This document shows, one piece after another, positions 2,983 to 46,741 of a DNA stretch of 64,000 bases. Every line of letters begins with the position of its first letter. The first letter of the stretch is position 1. Below the pieces are notes generated by a model, which saw only the letters and a list, made by a program, of their open reading frames with translations, had not been told where the DNA came from and made no database searches. Origin of the DNA: Halomonas sp. KG2 (lineage in GTDB: Bacteria; Pseudomonadota; Gammaproteobacteria; Pseudomonadales; Halomonadaceae). A program made the position numbers and the translations under genes. The stretch is from assembly GCA_030440445.1 (NCBI GenBank), contig CP098528.1, forward strand, positions 3,968,001 through 4,032,000. Reading direction: 5' to 3'.

Positions 2983-3897
2983 GTGACCCCATCTCAGATC
3001 ATGCCAAGCCTGTTTGGTGATGTTATTTCTACCTTTATGGGCGTGCCGAAGGCCAGCGATCCTAAAACGACCGATGCTGAGGTCGTGGTGAGTGGTGTGC
3101 CCTTTGATCTAGCATGCTCAGGACGATCAGGCACCCGCATGGGGCCAAACGCCATTCGTCAAAGCACTGCTAACCTGATCTGGGAAGGCAAACGCTGGCC
3201 TTGGAACTTCGCCCTGGAAGAGCGGCTGCGGGTATGCGACGCGGGCAATCTGGACTACGCCTACGGTGAGCCGGAAAGCCTAGTCGACAACCTTGAGACC
3301 CACGCATTGCGGTGGCTAAAAGCCGATAAAAAAATGCTGACACTGGGCGGTGACCACTATATCAGCCTGCCCCTGCTACGCGCTTATGCTCGGGTGCATG
3401 GCCCACTGGCACTGATTCATTTTGATGCCCACACCGACACCTACGAGCAAGGCACGCGTTTTGACCATGGCACTATTTTCCACCATGCCTTAAAAGAGGG
3501 CTTGGTAGTGCCGGAACACTCGCTGCAAATTGGCATTCGCACCAGCTATGACCGCCATAACCACCCTTATGAAGTGCTGGATGCAGACTGGGTAAATGAT
3601 CACGGCCCTGCCGCCGTACTGGAACGCATTCGTGCCCGTGTTGGCCATCATCCGGCTTATATCAGCCTGGACATTGATGGCTTAGACCCTGCCTACGCGC
3701 CAGGCACTGGGACACCGGTATGTGGCGGCATGTCTACCGACCTGATGCTAAAAGTGATCCGCGGCATGGCAGGCATGCAGTTAATAGGCATGGATGTTGT
3801 TGAAGTAAACCCTGCTTACGACCATGGCGATATCACATCACTCGCCGCAGCCACGTTGGGGCTAGAATTTTTATATACGCTGGCCGCGTATAAATAA
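2983..3897 (+). CDS. speB: Agmatinase (agmatine ureohydrolase)
   Basis: The protein has 304 residues and belongs to the ureohydrolase (arginase) family. Agmatinase hydrolyses agmatine to putrescine and urea in the cytoplasm. All dinuclear manganese ligands are visible: H125 in GGDH, D148/H150/D152 in HFDAHTDT, and D230/D232 in SLDIDGLDPAYAPGTGTP. The segment FDHGTIFHHALKEG is typical of SpeB rather than arginase. The start is a GTG at 2983 with GGAG about 10 bp upstream. A divergent LysR gene may control it. No arginine decarboxylase is in the window, so the agmatine source lies elsewhere or outside the cell. Other guanidino-acid ureohydrolases (for example guanidinobutyrase) share these motifs and cannot be excluded. 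Confidence 0.88.
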   Translation: MTPSQIMPSLFGDVISTFMGVPKASDPKTTDAEVVVSGVPFDLACSGRSGTRMGPNAIRQSTANLIWEGKRWPWNFALEERLRVCDAGNLDYAYGEPESLVDNLETHALRWLKADKKMLTLGGDHYISLPLLRAYARVHGPLALIHFDAHTDTYEQGTRFDHGTIFHHALKEGLVVPEHSLQIGIRTSYDRHNHPYEVLDADWVNDHGPAAVLERIRARVGHHPAYISLDIDGLDPAYAPGTGTPVCGGMSTDLMLKVIRGMAGMQLIGMDVVEVNPAYDHGDITSLAAATLGLEFLYTLAAYK

Positions 3898-4088
3898 CGT
3901 TTTTAACCCTGCAAATGGCAGCTGATAACGAGTAAAAAAACGCGGTAAAACGTAACCATCGTGACGGGTTATCGCTACTTTGTTGCGCCTTACGACGAAG
4001 TGTCAATGGCGCTTCCCGAGCACAAGACTACTATCAGTAATAAAAATATAACTAAAAATCATACCCGTCTTTGCTCTTGGAGTTCGCC

Positions 4089-5471
4089 ATGTATAAGTCT
4101 TTGTTGTTCAGCCGCAGGGAGCTGCTAAAAGTAGGTACGGGTCTTGGTGTTAGTAGCCTTTTTGCACTCAGCACCGTCTCTGCTGCCCCGCTCAGAACCC
4201 AGGCTCATATTGTCATTCTGGGTGGTGGCGCCGCAGGTATGGCAATGGCCAATCGTTTGGCAAAACGCCTGCAGGGCGGAACGATCACATTAGTGGAACC
4301 ACGCGAAACGCATCATTATCAGCCAGGCTGGACATTAGTGGCATCAGGCGTTTGGCAGCCCGATAAAACCATGCGCCCTAACGCTCAGTTTGTGCCACGG
4401 GGAGTAGAGTGGGTGCGTGAATACGCCGCTAGTATTGATGCTGACAACAAGCGAGTAGCTCTTGCCAATGGTGCAACGCTTGTCTACGACTACCTGGTGG
4501 TGGCCACAGGCATTCAACTCAACTATCACCTGATCGAAGGTATGTCACCCACATTGGTAGGGCAGCACGGGATTGGCAGTGTGTATGCTAGCCTCGATGG
4601 CGCAATACGAACGAACCAAGCCATTCAAACATGGCTGGATCACGGCCAGGGAAAAGGGATATTCACGGCCGCCCCAACACCAGTAAAGTGCGCTGGCGCT
4701 CCGTTGAAAATGACGTTTACTACATTAAGTCGGCTAGAAGCATCTGGGCGACGAGACGCCTTCGATGTGGAATATATGGCGCCTGGCACCAGTCTCTTTT
4801 CCCAGCCCTGGGTCAACGAATTTGTTAAACAGCGTTTTGATGAACAAGGTGTCACCCGTCGTCATCACTATCGCCTTTCTGCCATTGACCCTCAGGCTAA
4901 GCAGGCTGAATTTACCTTTATTGGCCCTGAGAGCGAATTTACCTCGCATCACCAGCTTCGCGAAGCTGAATTCAGGCGCGAAGGTCAGCCAACGGTGGTT
5001 GCGGATTACGATTTTATTCACGTAGTGCCACCAATGAGTGCCCACGACTTCATCAAACAGAGTGCACTTATTGCACAGGAGGGTCCTTTCAGAGGGGAGT
5101 GGTTGGATGTGGATATTTACACCATGCAGCACAACCGCTATCCCGAAGTGTTCGGTATTGGCGATGTGATCGGCGCACCGATTAATAAAACGGCCGCCAG
5201 CGTTAAGGCCCAAGCACCCGTCGTAGAAGCCAACCTGCTTGCTGTCATGCAAGGAAATCCTCTCCCCGCCCGCCATACTGGTTACACCTCGTGTCCAATG
5301 ATTACTGGCATTGGCAAGGCCATGCTGGTGGAGTTTGGCTATGAAGACAACTTCGCCTTTATGCCATCTTTCCCGTTTATTGATCCTACCGATGAATCTT
5401 GGGTTACATGGGTAATGAAAGATCGCATGCTACAGCCCGCCTACTACGCAGTACTAGCAGGACAAGCCTAA
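4089..5471 (+). CDS. Sulfide:quinone oxidoreductase-like FAD flavoprotein with Tat-type signal
   Basis: The preferred start is the ATG at 4089, preceded by GGAG at 4079; an upstream TTG at 4071 has no ribosome site. The 460-residue product opens with SRRELLK followed by a hydrophobic stretch and AxA, a twin-arginine export signal. The FAD-binding GGGAAG is near residue 46, with a second nucleotide motif VVATG and a GDV motif near 358. Two cysteines, C201 (PVKCAGAP) and C402 (TSCPMITG), are placed like the redox cysteines of type II SQR enzymes, which pass electrons from sulfide to quinone. Only two cysteines are present. The gene for a small membrane protein follows after 11 bp and may be a partner. 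Flavocytochrome c sulfide dehydrogenase is a less likely alternative. Confidence 0.8.
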   Translation: MYKSLLFSRRELLKVGTGLGVSSLFALSTVSAAPLRTQAHIVILGGGAAGMAMANRLAKRLQGGTITLVEPRETHHYQPGWTLVASGVWQPDKTMRPNAQFVPRGVEWVREYAASIDADNKRVALANGATLVYDYLVVATGIQLNYHLIEGMSPTLVGQHGIGSVYASLDGAIRTNQAIQTWLDHGQGKGIFTAAPTPVKCAGAPLKMTFTTLSRLEASGRRDAFDVEYMAPGTSLFSQPWVNEFVKQRFDEQGVTRRHHYRLSAIDPQAKQAEFTFIGPESEFTSHHQLREAEFRREGQPTVVADYDFIHVVPPMSAHDFIKQSALIAQEGPFRGEWLDVDIYTMQHNRYPEVFGIGDVIGAPINKTAASVKAQAPVVEANLLAVMQGNPLPARHTGYTSCPMITGIGKAMLVEFGYEDNFAFMPSFPFIDPTDESWVTWVMKDRMLQPAYYAVLAGQA

Positions 5472-36516: not shown

Positions 36517-37878
36517 TTAGCTTTTCAAACTTGCCAACACCTTCGCTTTAGAGGCATTTTCGCGCTCTGCATAGAGCGACAACTCATCTGTCACCTGGGC
36601 ACCCAGCGCCTCCTCAAAGGCATCGCGATTGGCATTCCCGGCATAGGCTTCGCTCTCTGCACCACCCAGGTTCGACTGGAAAATACCCGCCGCGCTGACC
36701 GGCAGAAAATCTTCATAGGTAATCGGCTGTGCTTCCACCAGTCCCTGGGCGATTAACGCCTCAATATCGGTATTGCCAACGTCTTTAGCGGCCTGACCTT
36801 TCTCGGTCAGATGATACTGAAAATACGCTAACCCCTCACGGCGCATGGCCTCGTCGTTATCAGGGAACTTGGCAAAGACGTTTTGCATAACCGTTTGGTG
36901 TGCGTCGTTATCTAACCCTGCGGTTTGCTTGCGGCCTTCAGTAAGCAACTGGTCATAAAGCGCACGGCCTTTTGGTGTTAGCGCTACTCCTCGCTGCTCA
37001 ATTTCACCAAAGCGAGCGGTGTGAGTACCTTGCGCGTTACCGGCAAAGCAGATTGACTCTTCCAACGCTTTAAAGCTGGTCTGGCGCAGCAGAATGGGGC
37101 AATCACGACGCGGCGGCCCTTCAATGACGGCTTTAGGATTCATGCCCATCTCCGGCATGCGGCGCTGTGCTTCGTCGATATCCAGGGTACGCGGCGTCAG
37201 GTGATTGATATGCGGCCCACGGAAGCACACCACATCAGCAATCAAACGGTGCTCATCATGAAGAGCCTGATAAGTTTCCAGGTCGACCGTCGCATCCTGG
37301 TGCCAACGGAAGGTCTCCAGCGCTTCTTTGACGAATTGGTCGGCCTCTTCGCTGGTTAAGCCACCCTGGGTTTCATGACGCTCGATAAGTTCGCGCGCCC
37401 CTGAGGTGAAGATATCGCGCTTGGCTAGAATCTCTTCCGAACGCTGGCGCAGCGCCTCGTTTTCAATCAGCTCTAAACGCAGCAGCGAGGTAAAAACGCG
37501 GAAAGGATTCATCGCCAGCGCGTCATCGTCGATGGGCCGGAAGGCGGTTGAGTGAACCGGCACGCCCGCTTCTGAAAGGTCGTAATAACCGACCGGATAC
37601 ATGCCCATCACAGCAAACAGGCGGCGCAGCATGGAAAGCTCTGCAGCAGTTCCCACGCGAATAGCCCCGTGGCGTTCTACGCTCAAACGGGCCAATTCGC
37701 CCTGCGCTTCCAGGCGGCGATGCAGTTCAGGCTGTTGACTAAGTGTTTCTTGGTTAACGCGCTCGACAAGTTCAAGCAGCGTGCCGTACTGCGGCACTTC
37801 GGCTTGATACATGGCCGACATTGCCTTAGAGAAACGGTCACGCACTTCATTGGTTGAAAGAAGGCTCGGCTGAGTCAT
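36517..37878 (-). CDS. hglS: 2-oxoadipate dioxygenase/decarboxylase (HglS, DUF1338/YdcJ family)
   Basis: The 453-residue protein is a DUF1338 (vicinal-oxygen-chelate fold) enzyme. HglS converts 2-oxoadipate to D-2-hydroxyglutarate with Fe(II) and oxygen. Residues I recall as iron ligands and substrate-binding in the Pseudomonas putida enzyme fall at identical numbers here: H70 and R74 (VERHGAIRVG), H226 (GPHINHLTPRTLDID) and E294 (ARFGEIEQRG). Its start overlaps the stop of the ydiJ gene by 4 bp, and ydiJ likewise overlaps an aminotransferase gene, so the three are translationally coupled. This is the last gene of that operon and converges on amaA. Confidence 0.93.
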   Translation of the reverse strand: MTQPSLLSTNEVRDRFSKAMSAMYQAEVPQYGTLLELVERVNQETLSQQPELHRRLEAQGELARLSVERHGAIRVGTAAELSMLRRLFAVMGMYPVGYYDLSEAGVPVHSTAFRPIDDDALAMNPFRVFTSLLRLELIENEALRQRSEEILAKRDIFTSGARELIERHETQGGLTSEEADQFVKEALETFRWHQDATVDLETYQALHDEHRLIADVVCFRGPHINHLTPRTLDIDEAQRRMPEMGMNPKAVIEGPPRRDCPILLRQTSFKALEESICFAGNAQGTHTARFGEIEQRGVALTPKGRALYDQLLTEGRKQTAGLDNDAHQTVMQNVFAKFPDNDEAMRREGLAYFQYHLTEKGQAAKDVGNTDIEALIAQGLVEAQPITYEDFLPVSAAGIFQSNLGGAESEAYAGNANRDAFEEALGAQVTDELSLYAERENASKAKVLASLKS

Positions 37879-40800
37879 TTCGTTGCTCTCTCTTGCATAT
37901 TGTTGGGATAAGGATGAGACACCGGCGTCAATAGCGCCAACAGCGCCTGAAGCGGGTGGTGTAATGTTTGCGCTGAGTAGCGTTTCACCTGGCTGCGGCA
38001 GGAGTAGCCGGTGGCGAGCAGCTTGCCTGTGTTTTCGTCGGCTTCCACCTGGGGCTGCCAGGATTGGGCATAAATGGTTTTGGAGGTTGCGACATTACGG
38101 GTTTCATGCCCGTAAGTGCCCGACATGCCGCAACACCCTGTGGTGGCTAACTCCAGCTCTAAACCAAATGCCGCAAACACCTGCTGCCAAGCCTTTGGGC
38201 TGCCTGGGGCGTTGGTCTTTTCGGTGCAGTGAGACAGCAGCTTAAAGCCAGGGTCGGTTAGGTTCAGTGGGCGAGGCACTAGCGTGTTCATACGCGTGGC
38301 TAGCCACTCTTGCAGCATTAGTACGTTGGGCACTTGCTCGGCCCCCAGGGCTTTGACGTACTCTTGGCGGTAGGTCAGCGTCATGGCGGGGTCGATTCCC
38401 ACCATGGGTACGTCGAACTCTGCCAACGCCCGCAGGCGCTTGGCCTGTTTTTCCGCCGTGCGCTCAAAGGCGCCTAAAAAGCCCTGCACTTGCAGCGGCT
38501 TGCCGTTGGCAGAAAATGGCATCACGAACACCCGCAGATTCAACCGCGACAGCAGTTCCACCACGTCTATCACCAGCTTGGCTTCAAAGTGGCTGGTGAA
38601 GGCATCCTGGACAATGATCACGCTGTTGGCACGCTGCTGTTCAGTCAGCAGCGCAAGCGAGGTGGGCGTAGCTTCGGCAACGCCCCAGGCACGCAGCTGT
38701 TTTTTCACGCTGGCGCGGGAAAGCTGGGGAGAGTCGCTCATTCCCAGCCCTTTGCGCATTAGGCTATCGACCCAGCGCTGGTTGAGTAGGGCGTTATACA
38801 GTGGCGCCACCTTGGCAAGCGTGGGCAGCATAAACTCGGTGCCACCGATCAGGTAATCGCGCAGCGGGCGTAAATAGCGGCCGTGGTAGACCTCTAAAAA
38901 CTGCGAGCGGAACTGCGGCACGTTGACCTTAATCGGGCACTGGCCGGCACAAGATTTACACGCCAAGCAGCCCGCCATGGCGTCGTAAACTTGGTGAGAA
39001 TAGTCGTGGTGTTGCTTACGGCTGAGCGTATTGGCGACGCGCAGCGGAAAGCTTTTAATAAAGCCCCAGCCGTTTTCGGCTTTCTTTTTGCGCGACTCTT
39101 CCACCACATCAATCCCTGCCTGGGACTGCAGACGCAGCCACTCACGCATCAAGCTGGCACGGCCTTTAGGCGAATGCACACGGTCGCGGGTAGCCTTCCA
39201 GGAAGGGCACATGGGGTCATCAACATCATAGTTATAGCAGGCGCCATTGCCATTGCAGTACACCGCCGCGTCATAGGCCTGCCACGTCCGCTCATCAATG
39301 GTGCGATCCAACTGACCGCGCAGGGTAACGCCATCAATCGTTAACAGTTCAGGGTCGCTGTCTTTGGCGATTAGTTCATGGTTTTCGGACCTACCCGCGG
39401 CTTCGGGCGGGCTAGACAACGGCGACGCAATTTTGCCTGGGTTTAGCTGGTTATGCGGGTCAAACGCGGCTTTAACGCGCTGTAGGCTGGGATACAGCTC
39501 GCCAAAGAATTTGGGGCCGTACTCCGAGCGCACGCCCTTGCCATGCTCGCCCCATAACAGCCCGCCGTACTTCTGGGTCAGGTCTGCCACTTGATCAGAA
39601 ATCTCACGAATCAGTTTTTCCTGCTCGGGATCTTTCATATCCAGCGCCGGGCGCACGTGCAGTACCCCCGCATCGACATGGCCAAACATACCGTAGGAGA
39701 GCTTGCGGGCATCCAGTGCGGCGCGAAACTCACTAATAAAGTCAGCCAAGTGCTCTGGTGGTACAGCGGTATCTTCGACAAACGCAAGTGGGCGCTTTTC
39801 GCCCTGCACATTGCCCAGCAAACCCACCGAGCGTTTGCGCATGGCGTAAACTTTTTGGATTTGCGGACGGCCTTCCGCCAGGGTGTAGCCTAAGCGCGCT
39901 ACCGTGGGGTCTTGGCTCAAGTGTTCCGTGAACGCCCGCACCCGCTCAGCCAAGCGCTCAGGATCATCGTCATTAAACTCGATCAGGTTAATGCCACGAA
40001 TCGGCGTGCTGCCGGTGGCGGGGAAAAACGTCGCCACGCTGTCCCAGACAAAGTCCTCCATGGCCAGCTGCAGCACGGTGTCGTCGATGGTTTCAATCGA
40101 GGTGGGGCGCGCGCTGGTCGTCATCAATGCTTTGGCATCGCGCAGCGCGTCCATAAAGCTGGCGTAACGCACATTGACCAAAGTGGCGTGTTTGGGAATC
40201 GGCAGCACATTGAGTACCGCTTCATTCAAAAAGCCCAGCGTGCCTTCCGAGCCACACAGCAGGCTGTTCAGGTTCAGCTGGCCTTCTGCTTCCCGCAGAT
40301 GCGCCAGATCGTAGCCGGTTAAGCAGCGGTTGAGCGGCGGAAATTTGGCCTCAATCAGCCCGCGCTGTTGGTCGATAATTTCGGCCGCGGTGGTATGCAC
40401 CTGGCCGAGCATGCCGGGTTGGGCAACGGCCTGCTGCTCCTCGTCAGCGCTAAGCGGGCGGCTATGCAGATGCTGGCCTCCCAGCAGAACCGTATCCAAC
40501 GCCAACACATGGTCGCGGGTTTTACCGTATTCGCAGCTGCCCTGGCCGCTGGCATCGGTGGAGATCATGCCGCCGATGGTGGCGCGGTTAGAGGTCGACA
40601 GCTCTGGGGCAAAAAACAGCCCATGGGGCTTCAGCGCCGCGTTGAGCTGATCTTTCACCACGCCTGCCTGAACGCGTACCCGCCGTGCCTCTACATCGAT
40701 CTCGAGGATCTGGTTCATATGGCGGGAAACGTCCACCACGATACCATCGGTCAACGACTGGCCGTTGGTACCGGTGCCGCCGCCGCGAGGCGTGAGCACG

Positions 40801-41033
40801 ACATCGCGGTGGGGCAGCTCAGCAGCTAGCTTGGCAAGGCGCTCCAGGTCTTCCGCGTGCTTAGGAAACACCGCCGCCTGGGGCAGGCGCTGGTAAATCG
40901 AGTTATCCGTTGCCAGCACCGTGCGGTTGGCATAGTCAGGGGCTATCTCGCCTTCGAAGCCTCGGGCGCGCAAGGCGTCGAGGAACGCAATATAGCCACT
41001 TCGCACTGCCACTTCGCTGACCATTGCGATCAT
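37875..41033 (-). CDS. ydiJ: YdiJ-like FAD/Fe-S D-2-hydroxyglutarate dehydrogenase
   Basis: The 1052-residue protein joins an FAD-binding PCMH domain (about 35-270; LTPRGGGTGTNGQSLTDG near 80), an FAD-linked oxidase C-terminal domain (about 290-560), a 4Fe-4S ferredoxin region (CLACKSCAGQCP, about 690) and a C-terminal heterodisulfide-reductase-type cysteine domain (ATTGCCGMSGTYGH, about 985). This order is that of YdiJ, which oxidises D-2-hydroxyglutarate to 2-oxoglutarate, passing electrons to the respiratory chain. Placed directly before hglS, whose product is D-2-hydroxyglutarate, it would finish the lysine pathway. It overlaps both neighbours by 4 bp. Confidence 0.92.
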   Translation of the reverse strand: MIAMVSEVAVRSGYIAFLDALRARGFEGEIAPDYANRTVLATDNSIYQRLPQAAVFPKHAEDLERLAKLAAELPHRDVVLTPRGGGTGTNGQSLTDGIVVDVSRHMNQILEIDVEARRVRVQAGVVKDQLNAALKPHGLFFAPELSTSNRATIGGMISTDASGQGSCEYGKTRDHVLALDTVLLGGQHLHSRPLSADEEQQAVAQPGMLGQVHTTAAEIIDQQRGLIEAKFPPLNRCLTGYDLAHLREAEGQLNLNSLLCGSEGTLGFLNEAVLNVLPIPKHATLVNVRYASFMDALRDAKALMTTSARPTSIETIDDTVLQLAMEDFVWDSVATFFPATGSTPIRGINLIEFNDDDPERLAERVRAFTEHLSQDPTVARLGYTLAEGRPQIQKVYAMRKRSVGLLGNVQGEKRPLAFVEDTAVPPEHLADFISEFRAALDARKLSYGMFGHVDAGVLHVRPALDMKDPEQEKLIREISDQVADLTQKYGGLLWGEHGKGVRSEYGPKFFGELYPSLQRVKAAFDPHNQLNPGKIASPLSSPPEAAGRSENHELIAKDSDPELLTIDGVTLRGQLDRTIDERTWQAYDAAVYCNGNGACYNYDVDDPMCPSWKATRDRVHSPKGRASLMREWLRLQSQAGIDVVEESRKKKAENGWGFIKSFPLRVANTLSRKQHHDYSHQVYDAMAGCLACKSCAGQCPIKVNVPQFRSQFLEVYHGRYLRPLRDYLIGGTEFMLPTLAKVAPLYNALLNQRWVDSLMRKGLGMSDSPQLSRASVKKQLRAWGVAEATPTSLALLTEQQRANSVIIVQDAFTSHFEAKLVIDVVELLSRLNLRVFVMPFSANGKPLQVQGFLGAFERTAEKQAKRLRALAEFDVPMVGIDPAMTLTYRQEYVKALGAEQVPNVLMLQEWLATRMNTLVPRPLNLTDPGFKLLSHCTEKTNAPGSPKAWQQVFAAFGLELELATTGCCGMSGTYGHETRNVATSKTIYAQSWQPQVEADENTGKLLATGYSCRSQVKRYSAQTLHHPLQALLALLTPVSHPYPNNMQERATK

Positions 41034-42283
41034 GCCTTGAGCGTCTCCAGCGCCTGCTCGATGAGCCCTAGCCCTTCTGCCATGACGTCTGGTTCAGTGG
41101 TCAATGGCGGCAATAAGCGTAAGACATTACGCTTGCGGCCACTGGGCATTAGCAAAACGCCAGCATCGCGCCCCGCGGCCAATAGATTAGCTAAGTGCTC
41201 TCCCCCCGTGGCATTGTCGGTATCTTCAAAGACGATACCGCGCATCGCGCCAACACCGGTCATGGCTCCTAGCATGGGAAAACGCTCGCTTGCTTTCCAG
41301 CGCTGGTAAGCACTCACAATCGCCGCTTCTTGGGCATTACCCCATGCGCTTAGCGCCTCGTCTTGCATGATATCCATCACTGCCAATGCAGCTGCACACG
41401 CGACCGCATTGCCTGAATAAGTGCCTCCCAACGCGCCTTTGGGTAAAGCATCCATTAACTCTTTACGCCCTACCAAGGCGGCCAGAGGAAGGCCTGAGGC
41501 AATGCTTTTTCCTAACAGAAGCAAGTCGGGTTCGATGCCGAGGTGACTGAAACCAAAGCGTTTACCGGTTCGTCCGAAGCCTGATTGGATTTCGTCACAA
41601 ATCAATAAAATACCGTGCTGATCGCAGATTTCCCGCAGCGCTTTCGCAAACTGGGGGCAAAGTAAGCGAAAACCGCCTTCCCCTTGAATGGGTTCAACGA
41701 CGACACACGCCACTTCACTGGGGGCAATTTCTACGTCAAATACACGCTCTAGGGCCGCCAGCGACTGCTCGGCGGATATCCCACTATCCTGGCTGGGGAA
41801 CGGCAGGTGATAAACCGGGCCAGGCAGCGCGCCTAAACCGGCTTTGTAGGGCTTAACTTTGCCGTTCAAATTGAGTGCGGCCAACGTGCGGCCATGGAAA
41901 GCATCGTCAAAGGCAATCACGCCCTGGCGACCCGTGACACCACGGGCCACTTTCAGAGCATTTTCGGTCGCTTCCGCACCGCTGTTCGTCAACATACATC
42001 CCAGCGGATAAGAAACCGGCACAAACTGGTCAAGTCGCTCTACGACAGAGAGGTAGCCACGGTGCGGCAAGGCATTAAACGCTGAATGCATGAGGGTATC
42101 GACCTGAGCCTTGACGGCCTCGACCACCGCTGGATGGCCATGCCCCAGGTTAAGCACACCAATACCGCCAATAAAGTCGATATAACGCCGCCCTGATTCG
42201 TCCCACACCTCTGCATTACGCCCTTTAGTAATGCAAACGGGGTGGAGGATGCCTAATGCACTGCTGACGTTGGGAAGGTCCAT
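41030..42283 (-). CDS. Class III aminotransferase, probable 2-aminoadipate (or 4-aminobutyrate-type) transaminase
   Basis: The ATG at 42283 has AGGAG 11 bp upstream and gives 417 residues; a TTG at 42325 lacks a ribosome site. Class III PLP-enzyme motifs are present: NSGAEATENALKVAR (about 94), VVEPIQGEGGF (about 197), ICDEIQSGFGRTG (about 226) and the PLP lysine in LLLLGKSIASGLPLAALVG (about 256). Sequence alone says GabT/DavT-like. Because it is co-translated with ydiJ and hglS, the best guess is conversion of 2-aminoadipate to 2-oxoadipate (AmaC role), feeding HglS directly. 5-aminovalerate or 4-aminobutyrate transamination remains possible. Confidence 0.82.
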   Translation of the reverse strand: MDLPNVSSALGILHPVCITKGRNAEVWDESGRRYIDFIGGIGVLNLGHGHPAVVEAVKAQVDTLMHSAFNALPHRGYLSVVERLDQFVPVSYPLGCMLTNSGAEATENALKVARGVTGRQGVIAFDDAFHGRTLAALNLNGKVKPYKAGLGALPGPVYHLPFPSQDSGISAEQSLAALERVFDVEIAPSEVACVVVEPIQGEGGFRLLCPQFAKALREICDQHGILLICDEIQSGFGRTGKRFGFSHLGIEPDLLLLGKSIASGLPLAALVGRKELMDALPKGALGGTYSGNAVACAAALAVMDIMQDEALSAWGNAQEAAIVSAYQRWKASERFPMLGAMTGVGAMRGIVFEDTDNATGGEHLANLLAAGRDAGVLLMPSGRKRNVLRLLPPLTTEPDVMAEGLGLIEQALETLKA

Positions 42284-42740
42284 CGTCGTAAACGCTCCTG
42301 AAATTACCAAGTGTTCGCTTATCAAACAGGTTCAAGTAGCAGATCACAAACGAAAAAAAACGCTAAATGCATGCCCAATAGGAATACATAGAAAATAGCC
42401 GGTTGATTTGAAAGTAGCAGCGGTGGCCACCTAGCACAGGCGCTCCTTGCCTGACACCTATGACACTAAAAAAGATCAAAAAATATTAAAAAAATCTGGG
42501 CATCGGGCAGACTGCTATAAATCGCAAATAATTGATTATGAAAAGCATTTATTAAAACCAAATCGCATGACAAAATGGAATACGTACGCAACTTAATTTC
42601 TTTTGTCTGTCGGGCGGCATACGTGAACAATAGCCAGCTACTTTTTCGCGCTCTTTTCGCTGACCGATCCCCAGACGGTCGGCTTACGAGAATTGCTAAG
42701 CAGAATTTTATTATAAATAATTTAATTAGCAGGAGTTAAC
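42284..42740. other. Divergent promoter region between the aminotransferase operon and the TRAP operon
   Basis: No gene is visible in these 457 bp. The region is AT-rich with A-runs (for example around 42353 and 42475) and a short palindrome ATAATTGATTAT at 42528-42539. It must contain both divergent promoters, but I cannot fix a convincing -35/-10 pair. An AGGAG at 42731 serves the TRAP binding-protein gene. Confidence 0.5.
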
Positions 42741-43766
42741 ATGAAAAACATTACCTCTAAAGTGCTTTCATCAAAAGTGCTATCACCAAAAGTGCTATGC
42801 GGCGTTGGCGCGACTCTTCTGTTGGCGGGTTGTGGTGGCGACAGCAAACCTAATATTGCTATTGGCCCTCCTGCCAGCACCACTCAAGGCGTTTCCCAAC
42901 TACTTTTTGATGCCTACGGTATTGGTAGCGATAAGTACAATACCTATCAAGAAGGCTTTGGTGCTGCACTCGATGGTGTGCAAGATGGCAACATCGATAT
43001 TTCTATCGGTATTCTTGGTTTACCTTCTGGCAGCATCGAGAACTTACAAGCCTCAAGTGGTGATGCACGCCTAATTAGCTTAAGCGATGACGCTATTGAC
43101 TATATTGAAGAGAACAGTGCCTATAAGCGCTTTACGATTCCCGCTAATAGTTATGCGTTCCAAAACGAAGATGTAAATACTATTACGGCTTATGCCATTT
43201 TAGTTGGCAACACAAATACTATTGATGAAGAGCTGGGTTATGAATTAGCGCGTTTAATGCATGAACATGCTGAAGAAAACACGCACTCTCAATCTGCGTT
43301 CATTACCCTTGAAAATGCGCTCAATGGTTCGGAAGGCCTCCCCATTCACCCCGGTGCTAAAAAATATTACGAAGAGCAAGGCCTCACCGTAAATAACCCG
43401 GTTGCGGAGCTTGGCGAAACTGAAGCCAAAGAAGAGTTTATTTTAGGTACCGGTAGCCAAGGCGGCACTTACTACCCACTCGGCGGTGAGATGGCCACCA
43501 TTTGGAACCGTTACCTGGAAAACTATAACTTCACCAATATTGAAACTGGCGCTTCAATCGAAAACTTAGTGAGCATTCGTGATAACGGTATGGATCTCGG
43601 GATGACCGTACACGCACCGGCACAAGATGCCGTTGCCGGACGCGGAGAGTTCGAAAGTGGCGCGATTGATAACGTCGCCTTTATCGGGCACATCTACCCT
43701 GAAGTCATTCAGATTATCACCCGTGAACGCTCCAATATTGACAGCCTAAGTGATCTAACTGATTGA
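42741..43766 (+). CDS. TAXI-family TRAP solute-binding lipoprotein with circularly permuted domain order
   Basis: The 341-residue protein has a lipoprotein signal (lipobox LAGC, cysteine at about residue 31). In ordinary TAXI proteins the order is GTGxxGxYYPxG..., ...YPEVIQII..., SDLxxK, then xIxIGxPxSxT..., ending at LPxHPGAxxYYxExG. Here the second half comes first: IAIGPPASTTQG at about 39, LPIHPGAKKYYEEQG at about 199. The first half follows: FILGTGSQGGTYYPLGG at about 232, HIYPEVIQIITRE at about 315, ending SLSDLTD. Both halves are complete and the joint falls at the lobe boundary. It binds the solute for the TRAP permease encoded next. A 15-bp repeat in three copies (42756-42800) encodes SKVLS/SKVLS/PKVLC in the signal peptide. 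The substrate is unknown. Confidence 0.85.
   Translation: MKNITSKVLSSKVLSPKVLCGVGATLLLAGCGGDSKPNIAIGPPASTTQGVSQLLFDAYGIGSDKYNTYQEGFGAALDGVQDGNIDISIGILGLPSGSIENLQASSGDARLISLSDDAIDYIEENSAYKRFTIPANSYAFQNEDVNTITAYAILVGNTNTIDEELGYELARLMHEHAEENTHSQSAFITLENALNGSEGLPIHPGAKKYYEEQGLTVNNPVAELGETEAKEEFILGTGSQGGTYYPLGGEMATIWNRYLENYNFTNIETGASIENLVSIRDNGMDLGMTVHAPAQDAVAGRGEFESGAIDNVAFIGHIYPEVIQIITRERSNIDSLSDLTD
42756..42800 (+). repeat. Three tandem copies of a 15-bp unit in the TAXI signal peptide
   Basis: Copies start at 42756, 42771 and 42786 and differ at only a few bases (consensus TCAAAAGTGCTATCA). They encode three pentapeptides of the pattern (S/P)KVL(S/C), lengthening the basic n-region of the signal peptide. 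The units are in frame, so copy-number change would not break the gene. Confidence 0.8.
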
Positions 43767-43777
43767 TGTTCCCTTTT

Positions 43778-43800
43778 CGCCGCTGGCTTAGCCAGCGGCG
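43778..43800 (+). terminator. Intra-operon hairpin between TRAP binding-protein and permease genes
   Basis: A perfect 10-bp stem (CGCCGCTGGC / GCCAGCGGCG) with a TTA loop begins 11 bp after the binding-protein stop. The following ttatatg is a poor T-run. Such hairpins commonly protect upstream mRNA so that binding protein is made in excess of permease; full termination is unlikely. Confidence 0.75.
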
Positions 43801-43821: not shown

Positions 43822-45779
43822 GTGGATAAAAAAAAACTCCTGACGAAGCGGCGCTTTTAGAAAAGTATGACCGTGAGTCACAAGTACGCTCTGCACTACA
43901 GCTAGGCAAGTGGGGCTGGCTGATCACCCTCATGGGTGTATCACTGACGTGCTTTCATCTCTATACCGGTTATTTTGGTACGCTACCGTCACAGCAGCAA
44001 GGCGCCGTCCACTTAGGGCTTGCCTTGGGGATGATCTTTATCTTATTCCCTGCAACGCGCGGTGCGGGCAGGCGTAATGGCGTGCCGTGGTACGACGTAA
44101 TACTCGCCTTCGTAGCCACCTTTGCTGCCTACTATAAAATCCTGTTTTATGAAGAAGTCCTGCGTGCCAGGGTTACGGGCTATTCAGCCGTTGACCTAAC
44201 GATTGCCGCACTCGGCGTGCTGTTTGTACTAGAAGCAACTCGCCGTACTGTAGGAATGCCAATTGTTGTCATGGCTACGTTGGCAATTCTCTATGCGCTG
44301 TTTGGCAACTTGATCCCCAGCCCTTTGCTTTCTCATCCGGGCTTCTCTCTTGAGCAAGTGTCTCCCTACTTATGGTTTAGGGAAAGCGGCGTTTTTGGTA
44401 CGCCCCTGCAAATATCGGCGCGCTTTATCTTCTTATTCCTGTTTTTCGGCGTTGTTCTGATGCATACCGGCGTCGGCCGATTCTTTAATGACTTAGCCTT
44501 TGCGTTAACCGGGCGCTTTACGGGTGGGGCTGGTAAAGCCGCCGTTATAGCAAGTTCGCTTCAGGGTATGATTTCGGGAAGCTCTATCGGCAACACCGTG
44601 GCTTCTGGCTCTTTCACCATTCCTATGATGAAAAATGCCCGCTTCAAGCCCGAAGTAGCAGGAGCAGTCGAAGCGTCAGCCTCTACCGGCGGGCAGATTA
44701 TGCCGCCCTTAATGGGGGCTGCGGCTTTTATCATGGTGGAGTACGTGGGCGTCTCTTACCGCGAAATCATGTTTTCGGCGCTGATTCCCGCCATTCTCTA
44801 TTTTGCGGGTATTTTTATCGGGGTGCATTTCGAAGCCAAGCGTCATCGCATTCTCGGCCTTCCTAAAGATCAATTGCCCAGCAAGCGTAAGCTGATACTG
44901 TCAAAAGGCTACATGTTGCTGCCTTTGCTCGTCATTATTACGACTATTAGCGTTGGCTTTACCGCTCAACGAGCAGCGCTACTGGGTATCGCATGTGCGT
45001 TTGCTGTCAGTTTGGCGCGCAAAGAAACACGCCCCTCGTTAAAAGATATATTGGTTATTTTTGAAAAAGGGGCGCGCGTGGCACTGCCAGTCATCGCAGC
45101 GGTCGCTTGCGCAGGCATTATCGCTGGCGTGGTAGGCATGACAGGCATGGGGTCAAAATTTGCTGCTGGCATTATTAGCTTAGCGGATGGCGTTTTGATA
45201 CTTGCGCTGTTGTTCACGATGATTGCCTGTATTGTCTTGGGCATGGGATTACCCACAACAGCAAACTATGTGGTTACTGCTACGATTGCCGCACCAGCAC
45301 TGATTAATGAGTTCGGTCTTCCGCCAATGGCAGTACATTTGTTTGTCTTTTATTTCGGCATCATCGCCGATATTACACCTCCCGTTTGTTTAGCCGCGTT
45401 TGCGGGTGCGGGCATTGCACAAGCCAACCCCATGAAGACCGGCTTTACGGCGGTTAAATTGGCGATTGGTGCGTTTATTATTCCTTATGCCTTCATTTAT
45501 AATCCTATGCTGGTATTAGTCGAACCGACGCTGTTGGGACTGTTAAGCGCGTTGTTCTTTTCACTCGTAGGGATTATGGGCGTCAGCAGCGCACTACTCG
45601 GTTACTTTGTGCGTGATTCCTTCTTCGGGGAGCGTCTGGTACTGTTAGTCGCAGGGCTTGCCATGGTGGTTCCCGAGCTGCTAACCAGCGGCTTAGGCTT
45701 ACTTGCCATGGTGACAGTGGGCTGGCTTCAGTCGCGCCGACCTGATAAATCCCAGGAGGCTGCAACGCTCGCCCAATGA
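43822..45779 (+). CDS. TAXI-type TRAP permease (fused small and large subunits) with frame break in an A9 run near its start
   Basis: The GTG at 43822 has GAGG 7 bp upstream, but reading on through A9 (43828-43836) meets a stop (TAG at 43858). One extra A, or a -1 slip, joins it to the long frame: MDKKK-TPDEAALLEKYDRESQ..., then about 620 residues to 45779. The only in-frame ATG (43932) lies inside the first membrane helix, so it is not a good start. The protein has about sixteen hydrophobic helices and TRAP large-subunit motifs (GMISGSSIGNTVASGSFTIP, ASTGGQIMPPLMGAAAF, GMGLPTTANYV). It moves the solute with sodium. It overlaps the downstream LysR gene by 4 bp. A sequencing error, slippage or phase switch are all possible. 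Confidence 0.8.
43828..43836 (+). repeat. Run of nine A at the permease start
   Basis: Nine consecutive A lie five bases after the GTG start codon and exactly at the point where the two reading frames must join. The run is long enough for slippage by RNA polymerase or ribosome and for replication slippage. Confidence 0.9.
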
Positions 45780-46741
45780 GCCACTATAAAAACCTAGCTT
45801 CCCCCCGGCGCTTAGTCGCCGGGGCGGCTTTCAGGTCATCAGGAGCGCCAGGTTTGGCATCACGCAATCTTCCTTCTACGGCGGCTATGCAATGCTTTGA
45901 AGCAGCCGCACGCCATATGAGTTTTACTCGAGCAGCAGATGAGCTAAACCTCACCCAAAGTGCTGTCAGCAAACAAGTCGCGCACCTTGAAGCCACCTTG
46001 CAACACAAGCTATTTCGTCGCGTGCGACGCAGCCTGCTGCTAACCCCAGAAGGGGCCATTTTTTTAAGTGACGTACGCAAAGTGCTCACTCAAATTGAGA
46101 TGTCGACGCAAGCGATAATGACCTACAGCGGTAATAGCGAGGTTCTTAAAATCGCCACCTTACCTAGCTTTGGTAGCCGCTGGCTGGCCAATAAGTTGCC
46201 CTCCTTTCTAGCCGCCAATCCAGGCATTAGTTTGGAGTTTCATGACCGCGTAAAAGATTTCGATCTTGAGCAGCAAGATATCGATATTGCTCTGTTTTAT
46301 GGCCATGGCAGTTGGCCAAGCCTTGCTTGCCATAAGCTTATTGATGAGGATATGGTCGCGGTTGCTTCCCCAGAGTTGCTCGCTCGGCACCCCATTCAGT
46401 CAGTCGATGACTTAACCCAACTGCCGCTGCTGCATCTCTCAACACGCCCTGATGCGTGGCACCACTGGTTTGCAAACCAAGAGATCATTACTGACCGTAG
46501 CTATCACGGCACCCGCTTCGAGACCTTTCCTATGCTGGTGCGAACGGCAATGGCAGGCGGTGGGGTTGCACTGGTTCCTCACTTTACCGTCGATGAAGAG
46601 TTGGAAGGTGGCCGATTGACCGTCGCTTGGCCATACCGGTTGCTCAGTGAGAGTGCTTATTACCTTGTTTACCCTGAACACTTGGGGGAACTCGCCAAAG
46701 TGCGACGCTTTGTAGAGCATATTACCCAGTTCAGTGATTGA
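45776..46741 (+). CDS. GcvA-like LysR regulator coupled to the TRAP permease
   Basis: The 321-residue protein starts at an ATG overlapping the permease stop (ATGA). About 29 extra residues precede the winged helix (RNLPSTAAMQCFEAAARHMSFTRAADELNLTQSAVSKQVAHLE). The effector domain follows from about 115. It is closely similar along its whole length to the regulator encoded at 32556-33443 (for example FEAAARHxSFTRAADEL, STRPxxWHxWF, DRSYHG/EHSYHG, YPEH). Its position makes it part of the TRAP operon, so it may autoregulate transport and perhaps the divergent catabolic operon. Confidence 0.9.
   Translation: MSHYKNLASPRRLVAGAAFRSSGAPGLASRNLPSTAAMQCFEAAARHMSFTRAADELNLTQSAVSKQVAHLEATLQHKLFRRVRRSLLLTPEGAIFLSDVRKVLTQIEMSTQAIMTYSGNSEVLKIATLPSFGSRWLANKLPSFLAANPGISLEFHDRVKDFDLEQQDIDIALFYGHGSWPSLACHKLIDEDMVAVASPELLARHPIQSVDDLTQLPLLHLSTRPDAWHHWFANQEIITDRSYHGTRFETFPMLVRTAMAGGGVALVPHFTVDEELEGGRLTVAWPYRLLSESAYYLVYPEHLGELAKVRRFVEHITQFSD

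Follow-up and report, generated by a model that had tools for sequence, protein, structure and literature searches.

A TAXI-type solute-binding protein of a TRAP transporter binds an acidic solute, closes, and docks on a permease that is driven by an ion gradient. Here we describe a gene on a 64,000-nucleotide stretch of the Halomonas sp. KG2 genome (contig CP098528.1, positions 3,968,001 to 4,032,000; referred to as the window) whose product, encoded at window positions 42741 to 43766, is homologous in both halves to known TAXI proteins (VcGluP, 8s4j and 9ibo; Thermus thermophilus, 1us4 and 8u79; VCA0144, 9ibp) and, like them, has a fused DctQM permease encoded alongside. It differs from them in that the two halves are swapped and the new termini lie in lobe 2.

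Three groups of described binding proteins come closest to this arrangement. The glycine-betaine-binding proteins of ATP-binding cassette (ABC) transporters, including OpuAC (2b4l), form a circular-permutation family, according to the accessible part of the paper describing them (PMC2395249). Like the window protein, they are two-lobed binding proteins with a natural circular permutation, but they serve an ABC transporter, bind an unrelated ligand and are 11-12% identical to the model of the window protein. TpMglB-2 (Tp0684) is also a circularly permuted lipoprotein binding protein, for which a “Type Ic / Cluster Bc” was proposed; in the accessible text, its relatives are mostly from treponemes and Gram-positive bacteria, and its authors raised a link to membrane tethering (PMC4990184). 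It differs from the window protein in having the Type I / Cluster B fold, in belonging to a glucose ABC transporter and in its rearranged N lobe, which adds a fourth crossover (PMC4990184). The TAXI-GltS protein BP0403 is a TAXI lipoprotein of unusual architecture but, in the part of its description available, carries its own extra N-terminal domain and a helical region before the TAXI domain, and its partner is GltS rather than a TRAP permease (PMC12344293). Among the papers listed by searches of the open-licence literature, none reports permutation in a TRAP or TAXI protein, in agreement with the original prediction made for this locus, and the accessible parts of PMC9732360 and PMC5812351 contained nothing on permuted TRAP proteins. 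Circular permutation is already known among ABC binding proteins (PMC2395249 and PMC4990184, accessible parts).

Segment order in the window protein and its relatives

The product of the window gene is very probably a working TAXI-type binding protein, anchored by a lipid and serving a TRAP transporter, which has undergone one natural circular permutation. The case for permutation comes from the order of the sequence, from a nested position in trees with standard-order sisters, and from the predicted topology. The open reading frame (ORF) starts with ATG at 42741 and its stop codon ends at 43766, giving 341 amino acids that are laid out as follows:

42741..43766, + strand: TAXI-type TRAP solute-binding lipoprotein, 341 amino acids, very probably circularly permuted (ORF, profile matches, same order in relatives)
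42741..42833, + strand: predicted lipoprotein signal peptide with the lipobox LAGC (sequence)
42852..43385, + strand: segment B, residues 38-215, which ends ordinary TAXI proteins (profile, chain alignment, model)
43386..43427, + strand: linker, residues 216-229, which connects the former C and N termini within lobe 1
43428..43763, + strand: segment A, residues 230-341, which begins ordinary TAXI proteins (chain alignment, model)

The protein is a member of the TAXI family: it scored above the curated cut-offs of Pfam NMT1_3 (203.5 bits against 27; E 7.2e-60) and NCBIfam TIGR02122 TRAP_TAXI (215 bits against 84.35; E 1.1e-63), and it nested among TAXI proteins in trees. Each profile matched it in two stretches, the best of which paired residues 38/39-214 with the C-terminal half of the profile (positions 113-289 of 289 and 144-320 of 320, respectively). 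Because residues 231-340 aligned with positions 4-116 of the VcGluP chain (8s4j) and residues 39-215 with positions 120-298, we conclude that both halves are present and swapped. The standard Cluster F order, A then B, is thus replaced by B then A, both in the sequence and in the predicted order of structural elements. The original prediction had read the usual C-terminal half as coming first and the N-terminal half last, with both halves complete, and the profiles and the chain alignment agree with it. Profile-based annotation can hide such a permutation, as NMT1_3 and TIGR02122 score both halves and yield one ordinary name.

The check for the same order in related genomes, proposed with the original prediction, was positive: near-full-length proteins in this order, at 85-100% identity, were present in 19 of 82 congeneric genomes, including that of KG2 itself. 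A contig scan yielded 32 loci from records of different strains, and the relative encoded at each of them aligned colinearly with the query, in a single alignment. Seven of these are from Bacillota (Virgibacillus, Oceanobacillus, Sporosarcina and Bhargavaea), at 63-69% identity, and 25 are of the Halomonadaceae type, an assignment that we take from the genus names of the records. Nine more Bacillota genomes were confirmed as permuted among ten examined, the tenth (G1130) having matched in standard order; the count of permuted genomes from this search of a Bacillota order is a lower bound. Segment order, break and lipobox (as a loose pattern) were common to all 46 distinct permuted proteins, from Halomonadaceae, one Pseudomonas contig and Bacillota. 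These proteins are 58-100% identical and share the same junctions, and their linkers are 12-14 amino acids long (218-229 in the window protein with the segment limits used for this comparison). The Pseudomonas contig (L054, one of the 25 Halomonadaceae-type records) is 29.6 kb long, is labelled Pseudomonas sp. Q2-TVG4-2 and adjoins Bisbaumannia in the tree; it represents a transfer, or a misnamed or contaminated assembly.

The permuted form is patchily distributed, occurring in 19 of 201 genomes of the family and 5 of its 24 genera. Samples of the order (244 genomes) and the phylum (398 genomes) each contained two carriers, both times the KG2 genome and its congener G025. Among 72,556 plasmid records, 324 matched, none at 60% identity or more, and the 15 matches listed aligned in two pieces at about 30%, like ordinary TAXI proteins. 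The KG2 genome encodes six other TAXI-like proteins, 25-34% identical per half; five of them have the standard order, and the sixth (L007) matched over the B half only.

Standard-order sisters and origin of the permutation

A sample of 348 Bacillota genomes gave two matches, the genome at its center (G624, Oceanobacillus, permuted) and G891, which matched strongly over the B half. The G891 protein proved to be an intact standard-order TAXI protein (L103:1084-2046). When L103 was used as the query against 299 genomes of the order of G624, 196 matched at an E value of at most 1e-40. Among the matches listed, 45 were near full length, in standard order and 44-65% identical, the 20 best of them being L120-L139; ten genomes, including G624, matched only over about residues 140-318, at 54-66% identity, and these were the permuted ones. 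L103 and L120-L139, 21 proteins in all, are 46-58% identical per half to the window protein. These sisters resemble the permuted proteins in the lipobox (in L103), in the same pocket positions and in having the same fused permease alongside (six of six loci looked at), but they are not permuted and their anchor is on lobe 1. The G891 genome is a 2.4-Mb Bacillota genome, and the next best matches in 54 genomes of its family were only 35-39% identical, so the standard-order sister also seems to move between lineages.

For phylogenetic analysis, each half (A or B) was given its own alignment, and the two were then concatenated in the order of the family for 92 sequences, of which 28 are permuted; exact duplicates were omitted, as were loci L009-L026 together with the named loci identical to them. 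The permuted proteins formed one clade (P), with a support of 100 in the joined tree, 96 with A alone and 100 with B alone. Its sister was S1 (L103 and L120-L124), with a support for P+S1 of 100 in the joined tree and 100 with B alone; neither P+S1 nor S1 was a clade with A alone. Support for the wider group P+S1+S2 was 93 joined, 94 with A and 97 with B. The standard order is ancestral, since every other TAXI protein in the tree has it. Halomonadaceae-type proteins lay inside the Bacillota permuted clade, together with Oceanobacillus and Virgibacillus (100), a placement suggesting that they were acquired from Bacillota; the Halomonadaceae set as such had a support of only 69. From these trees, the permutation arose once, probably in Bacillota, with subsequent transfer to Halomonadaceae. 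The most likely route would be that a Bacillota ancestor duplicated the gene in tandem and in frame and then lost the outer pieces. The original prediction had likewise named tandem duplication followed by deletion, and this remains a likely route, but no tandem A-B-A intermediate was present in 148 ORF rows, and the duplication is therefore unproven. One of these rows, L007, lacked an A half and was omitted.

Codon variation shows, at the level of sequence comparison, constraint on the permuted gene. In ten Vreelandella-type genes, variable sites at codon positions 1, 2 and 3 numbered 31, 14 and 165 in segment B and 20, 7 and 96 in segment A; in the linker the bias was less clean (7, 5 and 16). 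The nonsynonymous and synonymous divergences (dN and dS) were 0.076 and 1.88 between the window gene and L042, and 0.192 and 1.74 between L063 and L064; dS was computable for these two of six pairs, the other four being saturated.

Fold, tether and alternative explanations

AlphaFold2 predicted a two-lobed venus-flytrap fold in which the order of the elements is rotated, in line with the topology expected from the original prediction. Segment B holds most of lobe 2, hinge strand 145-157 and the C-terminal part of lobe 1, and segment A holds the start of lobe 1, hinge strand 312-328 and the first 16 residues of lobe 2. When mapped on VcGluP with the chain alignment and the accessible part of PMC11574862, the break fell about 16 residues into lobe 2 (domain 2), past the crossover strand, and therefore lobe 2 is the split lobe and both hinge crossovers are intact. 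This corrects the earlier placement of the break, which had been put where lobe 1 gives way to lobe 2; the accompanying claim, that the swapped order makes lobe 1 one continuous segment, was borne out. The new termini would be placed in lobe 2, flanked by the short helix that follows the lobe 1-to-lobe 2 crossover and by the next strand. The old N and C termini, both in lobe 1, would be joined by the short linker, a region modelled with a block predicted local distance difference test (pLDDT) score of 98 (residues 211-220) and 90 (residues 221-230). As both hinge strands are continuous, ligand-driven closure should be unchanged, and the lipid tether would have shifted from lobe 1 to lobe 2.

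For the permuted model, Foldseek ranked 9ibp first, over part of its length, and the best full-length structural match was OpuAC, at the 11-12% identity given above. No TAXI chain was among the 50 rows given by VIA-align, an absence that is no evidence, because Foldseek placed a TAXI chain first. Sequence searches gave TAXI families and chains only, and hence no sequence homology to the OpuAC group. The structure 1r9l is that of E. coli ProX.

The anchor itself would be Cys31, predicted from the sequence to be lipidated (codon 42831-42833). At position +2 after this cysteine (window 42834-42836), all 46 permuted proteins have Gly, Ser or Asn, never Asp. By the E. coli +2 rule, such residues would direct the proteins of Gram-negative members to the outer membrane.

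Permuted and unpermuted TAXI proteins are up to 55-58% identical per half and both stand beside related permeases, so that they offer a direct test of whether a flytrap protein and its transporter depend on chain order and tether position. The permuted binding proteins of the two ABC papers cited above are far more diverged from their unpermuted kin: in the accessible parts of the papers, the glycine-betaine-binding set is less than 24% identical pairwise (PMC2395249), and TpMglB-2 shows 13% identity over the moved part (PMC4990184).

Other explanations of these data were weighed against a single natural permutation. A local misassembly, which the original prediction had named as its alternative, or a sequencing artifact has a negligible chance of having made the swapped order. 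No result speaks for it: relatives share the order, so that the order is not a property of one assembly, and it recurs with the same junctions in the 19 congeneric genomes, the 32 scanned loci and the nine further Bacillota genomes. We rejected this candidate on the agreement of independent assemblies. Just as improbable is a decaying gene pieced together from fragments, for which nothing speaks beyond the unusual order. The frames are open throughout, third-position bias is present in both halves and dN is far below dS, and a pseudogene was rejected on the codon pattern across species.

A chimera, in which halves from two different TAXI genes were fused, would accommodate the fact that the permuted clade and S1 group together in the B-only tree yet not in the A-only tree. 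We consider it unlikely, since both halves assign the permuted proteins to one and the same larger clade, P+S1+S2, each half is similarly close to the same 21 sisters, and the A half is short (112 columns), so weak resolution is to be expected. There is a similarly small chance that the permuted protein has left transport and serves as a scavenging or sensing lipoprotein, with the permease using another binding protein. The move of the anchor to the other lobe and the +2 residues, which would place Gram-negative members in the outer membrane, would suit such a role, but a fused TRAP permease is encoded next in all 41 permuted loci, as in the six sister loci, and the pocket positions equal those of the sister.

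Partner permease, neighboring genes and possible ligand

The permuted protein, as a transport component, would capture an acidic solute and deliver it to the fused DctQM permease of the adjacent gene. The features around its gene are as follows:

43778..43800, + strand: hairpin between the binding-protein and permease genes, 11-nucleotide arms and a 1-nucleotide loop
43822..43836, + strand: permease GTG start, then GAT and nine A (A9; A run 43828-43836)
43830..45779, + strand: fused TRAP permease, DctQM type (frame open from 43830, first in-frame ATG at 43932)
45776..46741, + strand: LysR-family regulator (best NCBIfam match GcvA, just under its cut-off)
41030..42325, - strand: 2-aminoadipate transaminase, divergent neighbor (NF049976, 743 against a cut-off of 650)
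37875..41033, - strand: D-2-hydroxyglutarate dehydrogenase YdiJ (NF049975, 1549 against a cut-off of 1350)
36526..37878, - strand: homologue of the 2-oxoadipate dioxygenase/decarboxylase HglS (84% identity with the L043 protein, which meets NF049974)

The permease scored 699 bits with TIGR02123 TRAP_fused (cut-off 320.65), and a fused permease gene follows that of the binding protein in all 41 permuted loci. In one sister locus, L152 (genome G1142, about 3066-4535), the permease matches as two pieces about 1.5 kb apart, which suggests an insertion in its gene. The LysR gene comes next after the permease in 23 of 25 Halomonadaceae-type loci and in none of 16 Bacillota loci; of the two exceptions, L048 ends earlier and L056 has only another LysR gene, on the opposite strand. 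HglS, YdiJ and 2-aminoadipate transaminase are the enzymes of 2-aminoadipate breakdown, and window positions 36526-42325 would form a cluster for the breakdown of 2-aminoadipate, 2-oxoadipate and D-2-hydroxyglutarate, divergent from the transporter. At least one of the three genes was found in 22 of 25 Halomonadaceae-type loci (4.3-13 kb each; missing in L046, L048 and L049) and none in the 16 Bacillota loci.

In VcGluP, the amino group is coordinated by the side chains of Tyr45, Gln93 and Glu125 and the alpha-carboxyl by Ser75; the water network around the side-chain carboxyl includes Ser40 and His123 (PMC11574862, accessible part). As read by hand from the chain alignment, Ser239, Tyr244, Ser272 and His317 of the window protein correspond to Ser40, Tyr45, Ser75 and His123, and the positions of Gln93, Glu125, Tyr200 and Met201 are taken by Val290, Tyr319, Gly90 and Ile91. 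This pattern favors a dicarboxylate that has no strongly held amino group. On the strength of these positions and the neighboring breakdown genes, we tentatively suggest that the Halomonadaceae ligand may be a C5-C6 dicarboxylate of lysine/2-aminoadipate breakdown (2-oxoadipate, D-2-hydroxyglutarate, 2-oxoglutarate or 2-aminoadipate).

The start of the permease gene is unusual. The zero frame from the GTG stops after 12 codons, and the permease frame lies in another register, in which a TAA that includes the first two A of the run closes upstream reading and no ATG, GTG or TTG occurs until the ATG at 43932, already at the first membrane segment. The 34 codons past the A run look translated in the permease frame, because their variation is third-position biased (11, 2 and 27 variable columns at positions 1, 2 and 3 among 14 hand-picked Vreelandella-type sequences). 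The A run is the sole run of at least nine A or T in the window, and it is present out of frame in 22 of 25 named Halomonadaceae-type loci (judged by eye for L054); L046 has ten A, in frame, and L058 and L060 are in frame with no run. In each of the 16 permuted Bacillota loci, the conserved N terminus is preceded by an in-frame start codon. A slippery tract is thus conserved with out-of-frame coding downstream, and it is a candidate site of programmed transcriptional slippage or -1 ribosomal frameshifting. Programmed slippage fits better than phase variation, since the tract is uniform, with no spread of lengths. Among the papers listed by searches of the open-licence literature, none reports slippage at a TRAP permease, and the words “TRAP” and “Halomonas” are absent from the accessible main text of the GeneTack paper (PMC3711429).

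The hairpin and the A run may together hold the permease at a low level compared with the binding protein. More speculative, and in our view rather doubtful, is the combined proposal that tethering lobe 2 instead of lobe 1 alters how flytrap and permease meet and that the dose of the Halomonadaceae permease is set by the hairpin and by slippage at A9. When the window was aligned with 13 of the 25 loci (14 rows in all), 98.4% of the hairpin cells paired and 11 cells changed on both sides. Covariation was 0.245, compared with 0.095 in shuffles, but pair types were no more numerous (5, compared with 4.7 after shuffling), and five of nine pairs are invariant. L054, L058 and L061 have hairpins of other sequence at that place.
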